Position numbers and translations under genes: made by a program. Below, one piece after another: positions 1,995 through 8,715 of a DNA stretch of 64,000 nt. Within the stretch, counting starts at the first letter, position 1; each line of letters starts with the position of its first letter. The notes beneath the pieces are model-generated. The model saw nothing but the letters and a program-made list of their open reading frames with translations, did not search any database and was not told where the DNA came from. This DNA comes from Caldilineaceae bacterium (lineage in GTDB: Bacteria > Chloroflexota > Anaerolineae > Caldilineales > Caldilineaceae): NCBI GenBank assembly GCA_022823185.1, contig JAJDXQ010000033.1:1-64000 (forward strand), written 5' to 3'.

Positions 1995-2036
1995 GGAACC
2001 ATGCTGCATATGGAAAGGACCCAGGAGAATTTGGCC

Positions 2037-3011
2037 ATGATTGAACTGAAAAGAAATCAGCTGATATTTCGATTCCCGGAAGTGCATAAGGCTGCCAAGT
2101 GCCGGATCTCGTTCCAGCGCACGTTGCGCATACCCGACGACAACCGGGCCTATTCGCTGCCGCCGGGGTTGGGCAGGTTTCCGCTCAATCTGGTGGACGA
2201 CTACACGGAGAGTGTGCCCGCGGGCTGGAACGCGCACGGCGGCGTCTTCCTGCCGATGTACCAGGCGGAGGCGATGTGGCTCAATTTCAGCGGCTCGTAT
2301 CCGATGGCGGTGAAGGTCGCCGCGGGCAAAATCAATGCGGTAACGGGTGAAGTTTGGGAGAACGAGCTTTCGAGGCGGCCACAGGACTATGTTGTGATCC
2401 CCGACCAACCCTGGCTGGACGGATTTTCAGTCATGAAGGGGATGATCCGGCAGTTTGTGGCGATGCCGCTGGGCGAAGGCTACACCGCGGAAGAGCAGCT
2501 GACGGGCGAAGCGGAGCACGGCGGGCTGCAGATCGTTGTCTATCCGATCAAGGCATCATACTACAAGAGGAGTATGGAGGAGCTCAGCTTCATTACCTAC
2601 AGCCCGCGGATCAAGCAGGCTCCGCCGCGGGAGATGGGACTGGCGCCGGGGGGCCTGATGCGCCAGGAGATATATGAGGACGAGTACGGGTTTGGGGCGT
2701 GGGAGACATCGGTGCGCTCGCGCTGTTACGTGCATATTGTGAACAGCCTGCAGTTCTTCGGTGTGACCGGCGCCCAGCCGCCCAGCTTGCCGCCGACGGC
2801 GAGGGAGTATACGGCTGCGGGGCTGCCGTGGTTCGACTATTATGGCGGTGACTTGAAGGCGTTGGCGGGCGCGGAGAAGCTGGCGGGGTTGGACAGTGTT
2901 GCTGCGAAGAAGCTGAAGAAAGGCGAAGGCGTGCTGGCCGACAATGAGGCGGTGGAGCCGAAGGTGGTGAAGAGGCTGGGGAAGGGACAGGTGAGAGAGG
3001 GGGAGTTTTAG
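2037..3011 (+). CDS. Conserved protein of unknown function downstream of XRE regulator
   Basis: This protein of about 324 residues belongs to a family I remember as a conserved hypothetical protein in Actinobacteria and Chloroflexota. Landmarks are F-Q-R-T-L-R-I-P-D-D near the N-terminus, H-G-G-V-F-L-P-M-Y-Q, V-A-A-G-K-I-N-A-V-T-G and Q-L-T-G-E-A-E-H-G-G-L-Q. I see no signal peptide, membrane segment or catalytic motif. ATG 2037 has AGGAG nine bases upstream (2023-2027). ATG 2001 in the same frame is the alternative and would add 12 residues. The gene is probably cotranscribed with the XRE gene. Its last 40 or so codons are repeated, slightly altered, at 4839-4952 in a fragment mosaic. The lysine-rich tail looks like a low-constraint extension. 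Confidence 0.7.
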   Translation: MIELKRNQLIFRFPEVHKAAKCRISFQRTLRIPDDNRAYSLPPGLGRFPLNLVDDYTESVPAGWNAHGGVFLPMYQAEAMWLNFSGSYPMAVKVAAGKINAVTGEVWENELSRRPQDYVVIPDQPWLDGFSVMKGMIRQFVAMPLGEGYTAEEQLTGEAEHGGLQIVVYPIKASYYKRSMEELSFITYSPRIKQAPPREMGLAPGGLMRQEIYEDEYGFGAWETSVRSRCYVHIVNSLQFFGVTGAQPPSLPPTAREYTAAGLPWFDYYGGDLKALAGAEKLAGLDSVAAKKLKKGEGVLADNEAVEPKVVKRLGKGQVREGEF

Positions 3012-3126
3012 CGATCTTGCCCAAGGTTGGACGAGGGAAGGATTGGTGAAGTGGATGACCAGGGATCGGGGCCCGTGAGCGGCGCAGAGTACACTCTACT
3101 GCGGTTGCTATCGCGCTCTACCTGTC

Positions 3127-3394
3127 TCAACGGAGATTGTTTCTGCCCCTAATTCTGTTCCGCTTCAGTTCGATCATAACCACATTCCCGGCGCGGTCCA
3201 CTCCCAGCAGGCCGGCAGATCCTCCCAGGTCGGTTGTCACTTGGCATCCGATAATGAGAAGCGCACCATCTTCAAGGACCCCATCCGGATTGCGCTCTAT
3301 CCTGTTCTAGATTTTTTTCTTCGTGCTTCACTTGAAATGATTCTTGCGTAAACTCACTGAACGCGCCGTCGGGATGTATGCTAAAGATTCTCAT
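3127..3394 (-). pseudogene. Frameshifted, truncated DUF91/NucS-like nuclease
   Basis: The minus strand begins at ATG 3394 with M-R-I-F-S-I-H-P-D-G and runs to E-E-K-N-L-E-Q near 3303. The homology then continues in another frame with I-E-R-N-P-D-G-V-L-E-D-G-A-L-L-I-I-G. It ends with L-L-G-V-D-R-A-G-N-V-V-M-I-E-L-K-R and a stop at 3127. The D...E-x-K core is that of DUF91/EndoMS (NucS)-type nucleases, in which E-x-L-E-x-W-I-E-x-N-P-D precedes the core. A two-base loss in the codon expected to be Trp would explain the shift. The protein also stops right after the E-x-K motif, where family members continue for 100 or more residues. It is therefore a dead remnant, and the second PD-(D/E)XK gene in 3.4 kb. 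Confidence 0.7.
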
Positions 3395-3613
3395 GTGTTG
3401 CCTTCTCCGGCTCCGCCTGGCAGTGAACGATTCAAATAGACGTATGCCGCACAGCAAGTAGACAGGATTGAATCGTGCATAAAGCTTGACGGTCTTAAAA
3501 GGCTGAACAGTTCGTATGTTCTCATTTTGGCGCTGGACATGGTAAGATGGAGTCTACATCGAGTCAGCGTTTAGAGTTTGTTATCGGATTGGAACAATGG
3601 AGAAAAGAGGACG

Positions 3614-4099
3614 ATGCTAAGAACGTCGGGAAAAACGACGCGTGTCGTGACTTCGGAATGGTCGGAATGCGCGACTGAAGAAGAAAAAGCGATCTTGGAT
3701 CGTCTGGAATCAAACAAGCTCGGCAAAGTTGCTCGCAGGCTCAACAGCCTGATCGAGATGTTCGACGAAGATCCGGATGTAGATCGATTGGTTCTGGAGT
3801 CGATACAGTCAGTCGCTGAATTCTTCATACGCAACAATCCTCCCCATCCTGCGATTGTGGCTGACTACGATGGTACGCTCGCGTTAGAATGGAGGTTGCC
3901 TCTAACGCCGCCGCCTGATGAGAAGTGGCAGAACTGTGACGGAATTCTCTGCATGGAATTTCTGCAATCGGGCGATATTGAGTTCTTTGGCGATGCAAGA
4001 AAAGTCGGAGGTGAGGAGGAACTGAGAATTGGAGGAGTTGCCTCACATAAACAAATCATGAAGGAGATCGACCCGTTTCTCAGCAGGTTGGGCAACTGA
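3614..4099 (+). CDS. Unknown protein, first gene of a coupled two-gene unit
   Basis: This 161-residue acidic protein has no family that I can name with certainty. A charged N-terminal helical part (about residues 1-75, including the run S-N-K-L-G-K-V-A-R-R-L) is followed by a possible beta-rich half. That half carries P-A-I-V-A-D-Y-D-G-T-L-A-L-E-W and then D-I-E-F-F-G-D-A. The latter reminds me of small proteins whose gene is followed by a partner carrying an F-R-L-R-P-x-E-x-Y-L-S motif, as here. ATG 3614 is preceded by AGAGGA; a TTG at 3578 is an unlikely alternative. Its stop overlaps the next start (TGATG), so the two are translationally coupled. The low GC fits the accessory patch. Confidence 0.6.
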   Translation: MLRTSGKTTRVVTSEWSECATEEEKAILDRLESNKLGKVARRLNSLIEMFDEDPDVDRLVLESIQSVAEFFIRNNPPHPAIVADYDGTLALEWRLPLTPPPDEKWQNCDGILCMEFLQSGDIEFFGDARKVGGEEELRIGGVASHKQIMKEIDPFLSRLGN

Positions 4100-4395
4100 T
4101 GGAGGCAAATGGATATGATCTCAGCAATTCTCACCTGATCAGGCATTGCCGTGCATCGCAGATCGACAACAATATCCCTACCTTTGAGGCTTTCAGACTG
4201 CGACCAAATGAACAATATCTTTCGTTCAACTGGTTGGAGAAAATCTGCGTTGACGCCGGGATTGAAGTAGATCACAAGAGGGCCATCCAAGAGCTAGAGA
4301 AGGCGCCCCCTTTGGAAATCAGCGCAGGGCAACTGTGGGCCGTTCTTGGTTGTGAAACGGTTTCGTCTGCAGTCCGGCGAGCCGCATCGGTGTAG
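4099..4395 (+). CDS. Unknown protein, second gene of a coupled two-gene unit
   Basis: This 98-residue protein starts inside the stop codon of the previous gene (ATG 4099, TGATG overlap). The recognisable part is residues 18-50, C-R-A-S-Q-I-D-N-N followed by A-F-R-L-R-P-N-E-Q-Y-L-S-F-N-W-L-E. I have seen this pattern in small uncharacterised proteins encoded just after a partner like the one above. There is no signal peptide, membrane segment or catalytic motif. The short, coupled, low-GC pair has the look of a toxin-antitoxin or other mobile two-gene module, but nothing in the sequence proves that. Confidence 0.6.
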   Translation: MEANGYDLSNSHLIRHCRASQIDNNIPTFEAFRLRPNEQYLSFNWLEKICVDAGIEVDHKRAIQELEKAPPLEISAGQLWAVLGCETVSSAVRRAASV

Positions 4396-4591
4396 CCGGC
4401 TATCCAGCTAGATTCAACAGGGATGTTGCCGTAGAACTCGCCAAGAGAATCCGACGATCTGATCTGTACCCGATTACACAGAAGAGACGACGGTTTCGTG
4501 CATCAAGGTAGCCACCCATCGTCGCGGCGTCCATGATCGACACCGGCTCATCTTTTACCCCATAGCCGGTTCAGACTGACCCCGAACTTCC

Positions 4592-4952
4592 TCACGCATA
4601 CAACACCACCTGCTCCCCCTCCACCTCCACGCGGTAGGCGCGGACGCGGAGTTTGGGGTCGTAGAGGGCCTGGCCGGTCTTGATGTCGAACTCCCACTGG
4701 TGCCAGGGGCATTTGAGGATTTCGCCTTCGCGCGTGTAGCTCATGCCGGTGAGCCCGTCGGGGAGGACGAGGGGGCGCAGCCGGCCGCGGCAGAGCGGGC
4801 CGGGCCAGCCACACTTTGAGGTAGTAGGTGGGGAAGCCGGCGGGGTTGGACAGTGTTGCCGCGAAGAAGCTGAAGAAGAGCGAGGGCGTGCTGGCCGACA
4901 ATGAAGCTGTGGCACCGAAGGTGGTGAAGAGGCTGGGGAAGGGGAGTTTTAG
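4592..4952. pseudogene. Mosaic of fragments of three neighbouring genes
   Basis: Three fragments abut without gaps. Positions 4592-4804 repeat the 3' part of the Rieske gene (5411-5623, minus strand). Positions 4802-4838 resemble an internal piece of the amidohydrolase gene (6180-6216, minus strand). Positions 4839-4952 repeat the 3' end of the gene ending at 3011 (2882-3011, plus strand), with one internal deletion. The Rieske piece differs from the intact gene at seven bases by eye, all silent, so its 66 residues are unchanged, including the CPWH ligand motif. No start or complete domain survives. It looks like the remains of a second copy of the amidohydrolase-Rieske unit next to a second copy of the unknown gene. 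Confidence 0.8.
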
Positions 4953-5410
4953 GGAATAGGTATTTCGTGGTACCCCAAAGCGCCATGCCTTTGTGCCCAC
5001 GCTATTTTGACACAGTGAAAATGGGCGCCGAGACTGGCGCAGTTTTTATGTGTGAGAATGCTCAGGAGGCGGATTACGAATGACCGTCCGCTGGGTCAGG
5101 AGTCCTGTCGAACGTCGGATGTGCCTCTGTCAAGAGACTTTCTGGGAAGTGCGTCGATCTTGCGTACGTTTATAACGACGACTGTGTTTTTCATCATCGC
5201 AGAAAGGTTGTCTGTGGCGGCGGTGCCTTGCGAAATAGCTGCCGGCTGCCCTGTTGCTGGTGGGATGTTTTTCATCGTGCTTCGGTTGCTATGCGTCTTG
5301 GATATCATTGAAATTCCGATCCTACTAAGTCAAAAGGTGGGAAAGCGCGGTGGAACTCAAACTTGAGTATTGTCTTCCCATCCTACCAGGAAGGCGGAAC
5401 TCCGCCAATT
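4953..5410. other. Intergenic stretch with no recognisable gene
   Basis: This segment lies between the fragment mosaic and the Rieske gene. Short open frames exist on both strands (for example 5052-5366 plus and 5096-5308 minus). Neither shows a family motif, a convincing ribosome site or codon use like its neighbours. It has lower GC than the genes to its right. I see nothing else in it. Confidence 0.5.
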
Positions 5411-5761
5411 TCACGCATACAACACCACCTGCTCACCCTCCACCTCCACCCGGTAGGCGCGGACGCGGAGTTTAGGGTCGTAGAGGGCCTGGCCGGTCTT
5501 GATGTCGAACTCCCACTGGTGCCAGGGGCATTTGAGGATCTCGCCTTCGCGCGTGTAGCTCATGCCGGTGAGCCCGTCAGGAAGGACAAGGGGGCGCAGC
5601 CGGCCGCGGCAGAGCGGGCCGGCCTTGTGGGGGCAGATGTTGCGGAGGGCGTAGTAGTCGCCGTCGAGGTTGAAAACGCCGATCTCCCGCCCGTTGACGG
5701 TCACGATTTTGCGGCCGCCGGGCGGGATTTCGTCGATGGCGGCGATGACGTGCGCGGGCAT
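5411..5761 (-). CDS. Rieske [2Fe-2S] ferredoxin-type protein
   Basis: This 116-residue single-domain Rieske protein has the two ligand boxes C-P-H (about residue 43, in I-C-P-H-K-A-G) and C-P-W-H (about residue 77, in K-C-P-W-H-Q-W-E-F-D). These would bind a 2Fe-2S cluster through two cysteines and two histidines. The proline-containing strand and the final V-E-G-E-Q-V-V-L-Y are typical of the ferredoxin component of ring-hydroxylating oxygenases. ATG 5761 overlaps the amidohydrolase stop (TGATG), so it is made together with that enzyme. It may donate electrons to an unlinked oxygenase or act with the amidohydrolase in breakdown of aromatic or heterocyclic compounds. No reductase or oxygenase alpha subunit is nearby. 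A second, broken copy of its 3' half lies at 4592-4804. Confidence 0.88.
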   Translation of the reverse strand: MPAHVIAAIDEIPPGGRKIVTVNGREIGVFNLDGDYYALRNICPHKAGPLCRGRLRPLVLPDGLTGMSYTREGEILKCPWHQWEFDIKTGQALYDPKLRVRAYRVEVEGEQVVLYA

Positions 5762-6924
5762 CAGTCTAGGCCGTAGAGCTCGGCGGCGGTGTCGTACATG
5801 ATGCTGGGGCGCAGTTTCTTGTCGAGCAGACGCATGAAGCCGGCGGGTTCTTCCCAGTCCCAGTGGGGATAGTCGCTGGCGAAGACCAGGATTTCGTCGG
5901 CGTGGAGCCAGTCGAGGAAGGTTTCGAGCGCCTTGCGGTTGGGCGCGTTGGGGAAGGGCTGCGTGCCGAAGCGGATGTGGTCGCGCAGGTATTCGCTGGG
6001 CAGGCGCTTGATCCAGGGCGTGTAGTCGCGCAGGCTCTTCCAGTCGGCGTCCATGTGCCACATGAGGCCGGGTACCCAGAAGGTGTCGTGTTCGATGAAG
6101 AGAAACTTGAAGTTGGGAAACTTTTCAAAGACGCCTTCGCAGATGAGGCTGGCGGTATGGGCCATTGCGATCTGGGGACGGGCCATCCGCATTTCGAGGT
6201 AGTAGGTGGGGAAGCCCGCCGCGGTGGGGGGCGCGGAGAAGCCGGCGCCCTCGCCGCCAAAATGGGTACACATGGGCAGACCGTTGCGCTCGCAGGCCTC
6301 GTAGATGGGGTGGTAGATGCGGTTGCCGAAGGGATGGAGACTGCCGGCAGGCATCAGGACCTGGGCGACGCCGGGATGGTCGCCCAGGCGGTCGATCTCG
6401 GCGGCTGCCTGTTGGGGATCGGCGGGCGCGATGTGAATTGAGGCTTTCATGCGATCATCTTTGGCGACCCACTCTTCCAGCGTCCAGTCATTGAAGGCGC
6501 GGCAGTAGGCGGTGGCATAGTCGACGGTGGGATGCACGGCCATATTGTAGGGCCCGCCGGTGAGGACGGCGATGTCGATGCCGTAGGCGTCGAGGTGTTT
6601 CTTGCTGCAGACGTCGGGAAGCGTTGACGGGTCGGGCTCGCCTTCCACGCCTTCCCAAAGGTCGGGGCGGGCATGGCCGCCGGGCATGTTGGTGTAGCCC
6701 ACGTGCGGGGTCATCGAGCCGAAGTCTTTGATCTGCTCGACATACTGCCGCGGCAGGTAGGGAAAGAGTGCCTCTGCGTTGGGGGAATTGTGATGCACGT
6801 CGCAGTCGATAATCCGCTGCCGTGCGGTGGTCTCCTGCGCGGGCCTCTCTGCCTGTTCCGGTTTGGCGCCATTTGCAGGCGTGACAGTGGCATTTCCGGT
6901 CCGCTCTTTCACCTCTGTGGCCAT
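5761..6924 (-). CDS. Amidohydrolase-family metal-dependent hydrolase (Amidohydrolase_2)
   Basis: This 387-residue TIM-barrel hydrolase is of the ACMS decarboxylase/amidohydrolase_2 kind. Visible landmarks are R-I-I-D-C-D-V-H-H-N-S near residue 38 (an altered DxHxH metal site), C-T-H-F-G-G-E-G near residue 222, F-L-F-I-E-H-D-T-F-W near residue 273, and V-F-A-S-D-Y-P-H-W-D near the C-terminus, where the aspartate is the usual catalytic metal ligand. A low-complexity N-terminal 35 residues precede the barrel. ATG 6924 has AGGAG upstream. It is cotranslated with the Rieske protein. The substrate cannot be read from sequence; relatives decarboxylate or hydrolyse aromatic and ring-cleavage products. 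Confidence 0.88.
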   Translation of the reverse strand: MATEVKERTGNATVTPANGAKPEQAERPAQETTARQRIIDCDVHHNSPNAEALFPYLPRQYVEQIKDFGSMTPHVGYTNMPGGHARPDLWEGVEGEPDPSTLPDVCSKKHLDAYGIDIAVLTGGPYNMAVHPTVDYATAYCRAFNDWTLEEWVAKDDRMKASIHIAPADPQQAAAEIDRLGDHPGVAQVLMPAGSLHPFGNRIYHPIYEACERNGLPMCTHFGGEGAGFSAPPTAAGFPTYYLEMRMARPQIAMAHTASLICEGVFEKFPNFKFLFIEHDTFWVPGLMWHMDADWKSLRDYTPWIKRLPSEYLRDHIRFGTQPFPNAPNRKALETFLDWLHADEILVFASDYPHWDWEEPAGFMRLLDKKLRPSIMYDTAAELYGLD

Positions 6925-7046: not shown

Positions 7047-7790
7047 CTATTCCCTGGCTTGCTTGAGCAAGGCGCGCGCCTGATCCAGGATTTCCGAACT
7101 GGGCGGATAGTGCCTGCCGGGCACGACCTTTTCAGCCAGGATCCGCTCCTTGGCCAGCCCCTCCGCGGTCTCATAGACTTCGGTGAGTTCGACGCACTCT
7201 TCGGCGAACCAGGAAGGCACGACAACCACGCCGTCATCGTCCCCGACAAGCACGTCGCCGGGCCGCACCAGCGCGCCGCCGCACTGGATGTCAACATTCT
7301 CTTCGGCTGGGAAAACCCAAGGGCCGCCGCCGTAGGGCGTTCGATCGCGGGCGTAGATGATCAGCCCGTACTCCTCCTCAACCATGATATCGAGGTCGCG
7401 GATGCCGCCGTCGCAGACGACGCCGTCCGCGTCGTTCATCCTGAGCTGCAGGCCCTTCACATCCCCAAAAACAGCCGCGGACGCGTTGCCCATGATGTCG
7501 ACGACCAGCACGTCGCCGGGGCCGCAACGGGACATGGCCCGGTAGTCGATGGCCTCTTCGCCGCCAGGCGTCTGCGCGGCCAGGTCGGGGCGGGGCGGCA
7601 GGTAGCGCATAGTGCGGGCGCGGGCCGCGAGGCGTTTGCCTGGGGTGAACGGGCGCACGTTATCCATGAAGGGCAGCGGTACGTCGGCATAGCTATGCAC
7701 GATGTGCCACACGGTGGCAACGGGCAGCTCTTTGAAACGATCCAGAACGGACTGCGGCACTTCGACAGGTGTGAAGGAGCGTTCGGTCAT
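7047..7790 (-). CDS. RraA-like / HMG-CHA aldolase-family protein (copy 1)
   Basis: This 247-residue member of the RraA/dimethylmenaquinone-methyltransferase-like fold has the conserved core G-D-V-L-V-V-D, then [13 protein letters not shown]. Asp and Arg of the DGGIRD loop form the active site in 4-hydroxy-4-methyl-2-oxoglutarate/4-carboxy-4-hydroxy-2-oxoadipate aldolases. The C-terminal [15 protein letters not shown] is also characteristic. Such aldolases act late in the protocatechuate/gallate 4,5-cleavage route, which would fit the adjoining amidohydrolase and Rieske genes. The family also includes the RNase E inhibitor RraA and many unassigned proteins, so the exact reaction is open. It is a close tandem paralogue of the next gene. 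Confidence 0.85.
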
Positions 7791-7953
7791 CGGGCGTCTC
7801 CTGAGGCCAGTTCGTCGTTGATGGAGAACAACACATCTTCTGCTGTTGCCTGATCATACGCGAAAACCGGCGAAACGTCTACCGGAAATGCCCGGTGGCG
7901 ACGACGACGGCTCGGACTGGGCCACCGACTGGCCGGAATGCCGATTGATTTCG

Positions 7954-8715
7954 CTACCCTTGCGCCTGCTTGCGGGCGGCGCGCACCTGCTCGTAGGTCT
8001 CCTCTCCGGGCGGGTAATACTTGCCGGGCACGACCCCTTCGGCCAGGATGCGCTCCTTGACCATCGCCTCGGCTTCTTCGTGGACCTCGGTCAGCTCGAC
8101 GCACTCTTCCGCGAACCAGGAGGGCACAACGACGACGCCGTCGGCATCGCCAACGAGGACATCGCCGGGCCGAACGAGGGCGCCGCCGCACTGGACGTCG
8201 ACATTTTCCTGGGCGGGGATGGCGTAGGGTACGCCGCCGAGGGGCGTGCGGTCGCGGGCGTAGATGATGAGGCCGTACTCCTCCTGCACCATGATGTCGA
8301 GATCGCGGATGCCGCCGTCGGTGACGACGCCGTCGGCGTTGGTCATCTTGAGCTGCAGCGCTTTCACGTCCCCGAAGATGCAGGGCCGGGCATCGCCCAT
8401 CACGTCGCAGACGAGGACGTCACCGGGGCCGCAGCGTCCCATGGCGATATACTCCGGCGAGTCTTCGCCGATCTGCACCTCAGCCTGCAGGTCGGGCCGG
8501 GGGGGCAGGTCGGGCCGGGGGGGCAGGTAGCGCAGCGTGCGGGCGCGGGCCGCGAGCTGCTGGCCCGGTGTGCAGAGCCGCACGTCATTCATATAGGGAA
8601 GGGGCACGCCGGCATAGCGATGGACAGAGTGCCATACAGTGGCGACGGGCAGTTTCTTGAAGCGATCCAGAATGTGCTGCGGCACTTCGACCGGGGTAAA
8701 GGAGCGATCGGTCAT
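7954..8715 (-). CDS. RraA-like / HMG-CHA aldolase-family protein (copy 2)
   Basis: This 253-residue paralogue is roughly three quarters identical to copy 1 by eye, with the same D-G-G-I-R-D active-site loop and [10 protein letters not shown] end. It carries an extra six residues where PPRPDL occurs twice in a row, encoded by an 18 bp tandem repeat at 8488-8523. The two copies share their first ten residues almost exactly. They are separated by 163 bases with no recognisable gene. The duplication may have broadened substrate range or created a hetero-oligomer. Transcription is probably from the 8716-9084 region, shared divergently with the transporter gene. Confidence 0.85.
8488..8523. repeat. 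18 bp in-frame tandem duplication inside RraA-like gene
   Basis: Two identical 18-base units (8488-8505 and 8506-8523) differ in no base. They encode a doubled PPRPDL in the protein. Copy 1 of the gene has only one unit, so this is a recent slippage or unequal-exchange event in a G-rich tract. Confidence 0.9.

Follow-up and report, generated by a model that had tools for sequence, protein, structure and literature searches.

A mosaic of three gene fragments in a Caldilineaceae genome as a probable scar of cassette exchange between two convergent conserved genes

Homology-facilitated illegitimate recombination is known from natural transformation, and in it one end is anchored by homology while the other is joined at microhomology. 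The term is used in PMC8116780 and PMC5312590. Two further descriptions lie close to the locus reported here, namely the minimal mobile element (MME) of Saunders and Snyder (2002), taken here in the definition given in PMC3898611, and the horizontal-transfer hotspots between flanking core genes treated in PMC5635113. The site analysed in this work, which lies between two convergent genes termed A and R, is most likely a minimal-mobile-element-like site and as such a new case of a known kind.

The window, by which we mean the whole stretch of 64,000 nucleotides that was analysed, is contig 30 of a 5.17-Mb Caldilineaceae MAG (G000). The comparison covered 17 genomes of the genus, one per species, the relatives being metagenome-derived according to their record titles; several of them, judging by their isolate names, presumably come from sponge studies. 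In the window the order at the site is A - Q relic - S - (R' am' A') - P relic - R - Am, with Q, S and P denoting cassettes, and the features are as follows.

2001-3011, plus strand: gene A, which forms the conserved flank on the left and encodes 336 aa without a Pfam family; the ~130 nt at its end are of the type that gave rise to A'.
3151-3394, minus strand: relic of a Q cassette, in which the N-terminal portion of a gene for a NucS-like nuclease is left, interrupted by stops; 58% aa identity to Q of G013, and 68% at the nt level to Q from G013, G009 and G016.
3578-4099, plus strand: S cassette gene 1, with a product of 173 aa that matches neither Pfam nor NCBIfam and has no family assigned; conserved at the site in G013, G008, G015, G005, G014 and G006.
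4099-4508, plus strand: S cassette gene 2, broken by an in-frame stop (4393-4395) and a ~52-nt deletion; intact, at 154 aa, in several relatives.
4592-4803, minus strand: R', the 3' part of a Rieske ferredoxin gene; its position is that of the single R copy in relatives with S only.
4797-4849, minus strand: am', an internal piece of an amidohydrolase gene, identified by its repeat match and the CGG join.
4830-4962, plus strand: A', the last ~130 nt of gene A, delimited by the repeat match and by comparison with G013.
4977-5410, no strand given: relic of a P cassette, its protease gene almost wholly deleted; 4977-5312 is homologous to the sequence directly downstream of gene A in G006 (79% over 336 nt; 75% over 88 nt to G009), and in an end alignment the last ~85 nt resemble the R-side end of P-type loci.
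5411-5764, minus strand: R, an intact Rieske [2Fe-2S] protein gene, 117 aa, the right conserved flank (PF00355, E = 1e-16).
5761-6924, minus strand: Am, an intact amidohydrolase gene, 387 aa (PF04909, E = 5.6e-33).

A repeat search confirmed the three-part mosaic, with R', am' and A' in register. R' matched R at 5411-5622 (212 nt, 97%), am' matched Am at 6175-6227 (53 nt, 83%), and positions 4830-4943 of A' matched the tail of gene A at 2873-2986 (114 nt, 91%), the A piece running on to about 4962. Neighbouring pieces share a few bases at each join, which bears out the statement of an earlier, sequence-only reading that fragments of the Rieske gene, the amidohydrolase gene and a third gene abut without gaps. 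Because the own-genome BLAST E-values were 2.6e-97 for the R piece, 8.2e-40 for the A piece and 2.7e-8 for the Am piece, these matches are not due to chance. The am'/A' join sits at GAAGC, which is found in both parents, and the R'/am' join shows the exact microhomology CGG, within GGGCCGG/GGGACGG; ~555 nt are absent between R' and am', and ~20 nt near the end of A' when G013 is taken as the reference.

The joins between R', am' and A' are base-identical, and at the same place, in the sister species G013, where they are followed by Q and not by P. An assembly chimera was rejected for the main joins, since G013 is a separately binned MAG and has the same bases. At its end, A' carries P-type sequence (TTTTAGGG) in G000, and own-clade sequence (cgctcttg) is retained in G013. 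The base-identical joins place the scar before the split of G000 and G013, and since the scar is shared yet the next cassette differs (P versus Q), the cassette would have been exchanged after that split. The A' copy of G013 shows 11-15 differences over 127 nt from local A genes, a distance equal to that between A genes of different species; dating from A'-to-A distances was dropped, as it gave no resolution. By sequence comparison A' is too short for self-duplication and import to be told apart.

Across the genus, A and R are neighbours in convergent orientation, 3' end towards 3' end, on every contig that covers the site. The A-R gap is empty, at 54-63 bp, in G011, G007, G010 and G004. S is the only cassette in G015, G005 and G014, and also in G008, where the contig begins within the gap; G012 has only P, G016 has Q, and G001 has a nuclease-like gene plus a DUF6946 gene. 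S consists of two overlapping genes (161-186 and 154 aa) without known family, P encodes an SDH-type serine protease (PF01972, E = 7e-17), and Q encodes a NucS-like nuclease, which in G013 has a match (6e-42) to PDC-S11, a candidate defence family of PADLOC. Within the genus, close homologues of S and P were found only at the A-R site, as were those of Q at 58-60% aa. Stacked arrangements were found beyond the window as well: G013 reads A - Q relic - S - scar identical to the window's - Q - R - Am, and G006 reads A - P - R' (348 nt) joined to A' - S - R - Am, so that its scar is a join differing from the window's and its cassette order is reversed, P then S. In G009, one contig reads A - Q - 109-nt R piece - further genes, and an overlapping contig reads P relic - R - Am. 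Contig ends fall in or close to R in G008, G009, G016 and G002, as a repeat would lead one to expect, and some of these structures are incomplete.

These arrangements also bear on which copy of R is the older resident. In the window, S-R' occupies the place that S-R has in G008, G015, G005 and G014, with the left flank found there. R' thus marks the site where R originally stood, and the intact R-Am is part of an added A'-cassette-R segment. Codon 64 of R specifies K or N beside S and glutamine (Q) beside other cassettes. G000 and G013 depart from this rule, with the two copies within each genome in agreement, a pattern consistent with gene conversion between R' and R.

The site resembles an MME in that different whole-gene cassettes, and an empty state, occur in different lineages (empty, S, P, Q and the G001 type) between two conserved genes, A being present in 14 of the 17 genomes and R pieces in nearly all. 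Another likeness lies in the nuclease-type cargo and in the lack of mobility genes, no match to integrase or transposase families having been found among the S, P, Q and G001 cargo proteins. Homologous recombination alone would fit the haplotype shifts at the A' end and at the last R codons, yet the scars also need a microhomology join. In contrast to an MME, the present comparison is between species of an uncultured genus rather than between strains, and the cassettes are stacked, separated by scars of both flank genes, and extensively decayed. With the hotspots of PMC5635113 the site shares a fixed chromosomal place and fast turnover of accessory genes, but it is very small (0-2.5 kb in most genomes) and was studied as a single locus. 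A literature search for published descriptions of such a site in sponge Caldilineaceae returned nothing specific; of stacking with scars of both flank genes we have seen no description, and we do not claim it as new in kind. In these uncultured, sponge-associated Chloroflexota the locus is an instance of conserved genes between which cassettes turn over. The cargo includes nuclease and candidate defence genes, with roles assigned from their families, and the scars of the flanking genes can be read as a record of events.

We consider it likely, with a probability of roughly 75%, that cassettes are exchanged between the convergent genes A and R and that the mosaic is a non-coding scar of recombination within this site, passed on by inheritance. 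An ancestor of G000 and G013 would have received or duplicated A-cassette-R DNA with an end broken inside gene A; homologous pairing on the R-Am side would have accompanied the joining of this end to the amidohydrolase gene at the GAAGC microhomology, giving A-S-R-am'/A'-cassette-R-Am. A deletion of ~555 nt with a 3-nt microhomology would then have fused R' to am'. Once the two species had separated, the cassette on the right-hand side of A', now P in G000 and Q in G013, would have been replaced in at least one of the lineages. Homologous recombination through A' and R is the most likely route, exchange by way of the flank pieces being the simplest account. Both the join and the deletion are reconstructed from their product, and the 5- and 3-nt microhomologies are so short that they may have arisen by chance. 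Homology-facilitated illegitimate recombination fits both the am'/A' join and the R'/A' join of G006, with the difference that at the A-R site it is inferred from the product. The R' and A' flank fragments might further act as extra homology arms, such that cassettes could be added, swapped or dropped singly without a recombinase, in a self-building array whose scars record its history; this extension is speculative, and we hold it to be doubtful.

The mosaic could instead have come from a plain tandem duplication in one genome, spanning the A tail, spacer, R and part of Am, with one copy decayed and without exchange between lineages. The am'/A' join looks just as the junction of a tandem duplication would, with the unit end joined to the unit start, and the ~555-nt loss between R' and am' resembles later decay. 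However, the spacers of such a duplication should match, and they do not, with the Q relic and S on the left and the P relic (G000) or Q (G013) on the right; moreover, P and Q occur at the A-R site in other species, and the R' of G006 does not group with its local R in a weakly supported tree. We thus regard tandem duplication as unlikely. We find still less probable the sequence-only reading, in which a second full amidohydrolase-Rieske unit under selection once lay here and was mostly lost. R' and am' do stand in R-Am order and orientation, every difference between R' and R is silent, and a second, broken R-Am end is indeed present, but R' holds the original site and is not the leftover of an extra unit, and a search for two full units found them in none of the 17 genomes. 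Loss of such a unit had been said to fit the order of the pieces; it leaves A' unaccounted for, which is the other flank of the cassette-exchange site. That reading had also named, as evidence against itself, an identical mosaic elsewhere as part of a mobile element: the identical mosaic was found, in G013 beside a different cassette, but no element with its own mobility genes.

The silent differences, on which the second-unit reading leaned, point elsewhere once they are polarised. Alignment of R' with intact R over 70 codons (stop included) gave the seven differences that had been counted before, all 7 silent and 0 changing an amino acid. Without selection the expected silent share is ~24-28%, so that seven of seven has a probability of ~4e-5 to 1.5e-4, and the all-silent pattern itself is therefore not chance. 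The changes were polarised by comparing this 212-base stretch across 16 copies found within the genus. The intact gene is the outlier at codons 13, 14 and 57, where the fragment agrees with nearly every other genome; the base of the intact gene is otherwise found only in the distant G012 at codon 27, only in G008 at codon 11, and, among close relatives, only in the G013 fragment at codon 49. By this comparison the intact gene carries the derived base at codons 11, 13, 14, 27 and 57 and probably also at codon 49, and the change at codon 62 is ambiguous and assignable to neither copy. In a tree of the R pieces, which with 212 nt and most nodes weakly supported is useful for branch lengths, the fragment branch measured 0.008 versus 0.032 for the intact branch. 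Since at least five of the seven changes, and probably six, arose in the intact gene, the silent pattern shows purifying selection on the working R and not selection on the fragment. R' is nearly unchanged, with ancestral bases kept, and its own record says nothing on selection. The earlier proposal that the source copy was under protein-level selection before breakage holds insofar as the source was a working gene, but the silent changes, as polarised by the relatives, lie in the intact R. "Silent-only" differences between a gene and its fragment thus need polarising before selection on the fragment is inferred.

The fragment is, in addition, predicted to give no working Rieske protein. R' begins after the first ligand pair and is without the first Cys-His motif, whereas a functional Rieske [2Fe-2S] protein requires both the Cys-X-His and the Cys-X2-His pairs; because the first pair is absent, R' cannot form the cluster. 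A 107-aa open frame does extend over 4592-4915, and the R' frame is open in both G000 and G013, but we consider it very improbable that this frame is a working small protein or that R' is held constant by selection. Besides the missing motif, the remaining cluster ligand His is lost in the G013 fragment (CPWH to CPWY), and the comparable piece has two stops in G006 and comprises just 109 nt in G009. Constancy by selection is opposed by the comparison of R' between G000 and G013, which differ by 3 silent and 3 amino-acid-changing substitutions.

A phage or plasmid origin of 3012-5410 was also considered and rejected: the interval gave no phage match, and the only plasmid matches were short pieces in annotated Rieske genes.

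Several further features were seen around the site. Upstream of gene A, 227-1393 encodes a 388-aa protein with a weak NucS/PDC-S11-like nuclease signature, and a gene clearly similar to it is the A-R gap cargo in G001, so that nuclease-type genes lie on both sides of gene A. The sister genus has gene A with other neighbours, and in one of its genomes (L152:3313-6585) gene A is followed by a type IIG restriction-methyltransferase-like gene; the downstream side of gene A may attract defence genes in that genus too. The G009 site apparently carries a much larger insert (L028:1-2741, L029:4821-9000; two contigs joined only through a ~310-nt overlap) with WD40, CobW-like GTPase and Fur-like regulator genes and a metal-binding ABC substrate protein with His/Asp repeats, a content that suggests a zinc-uptake set. 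Beyond Am, two tandem RraA-like genes (7047-8715, 76% DNA identity) are found side by side in several relatives as well (e.g., G013, G008, G015 and G011), and the second contains an 18-nt tandem duplication at 8494-8530 that is absent in G013 and G008, judging by their 18-nt shorter gene length.
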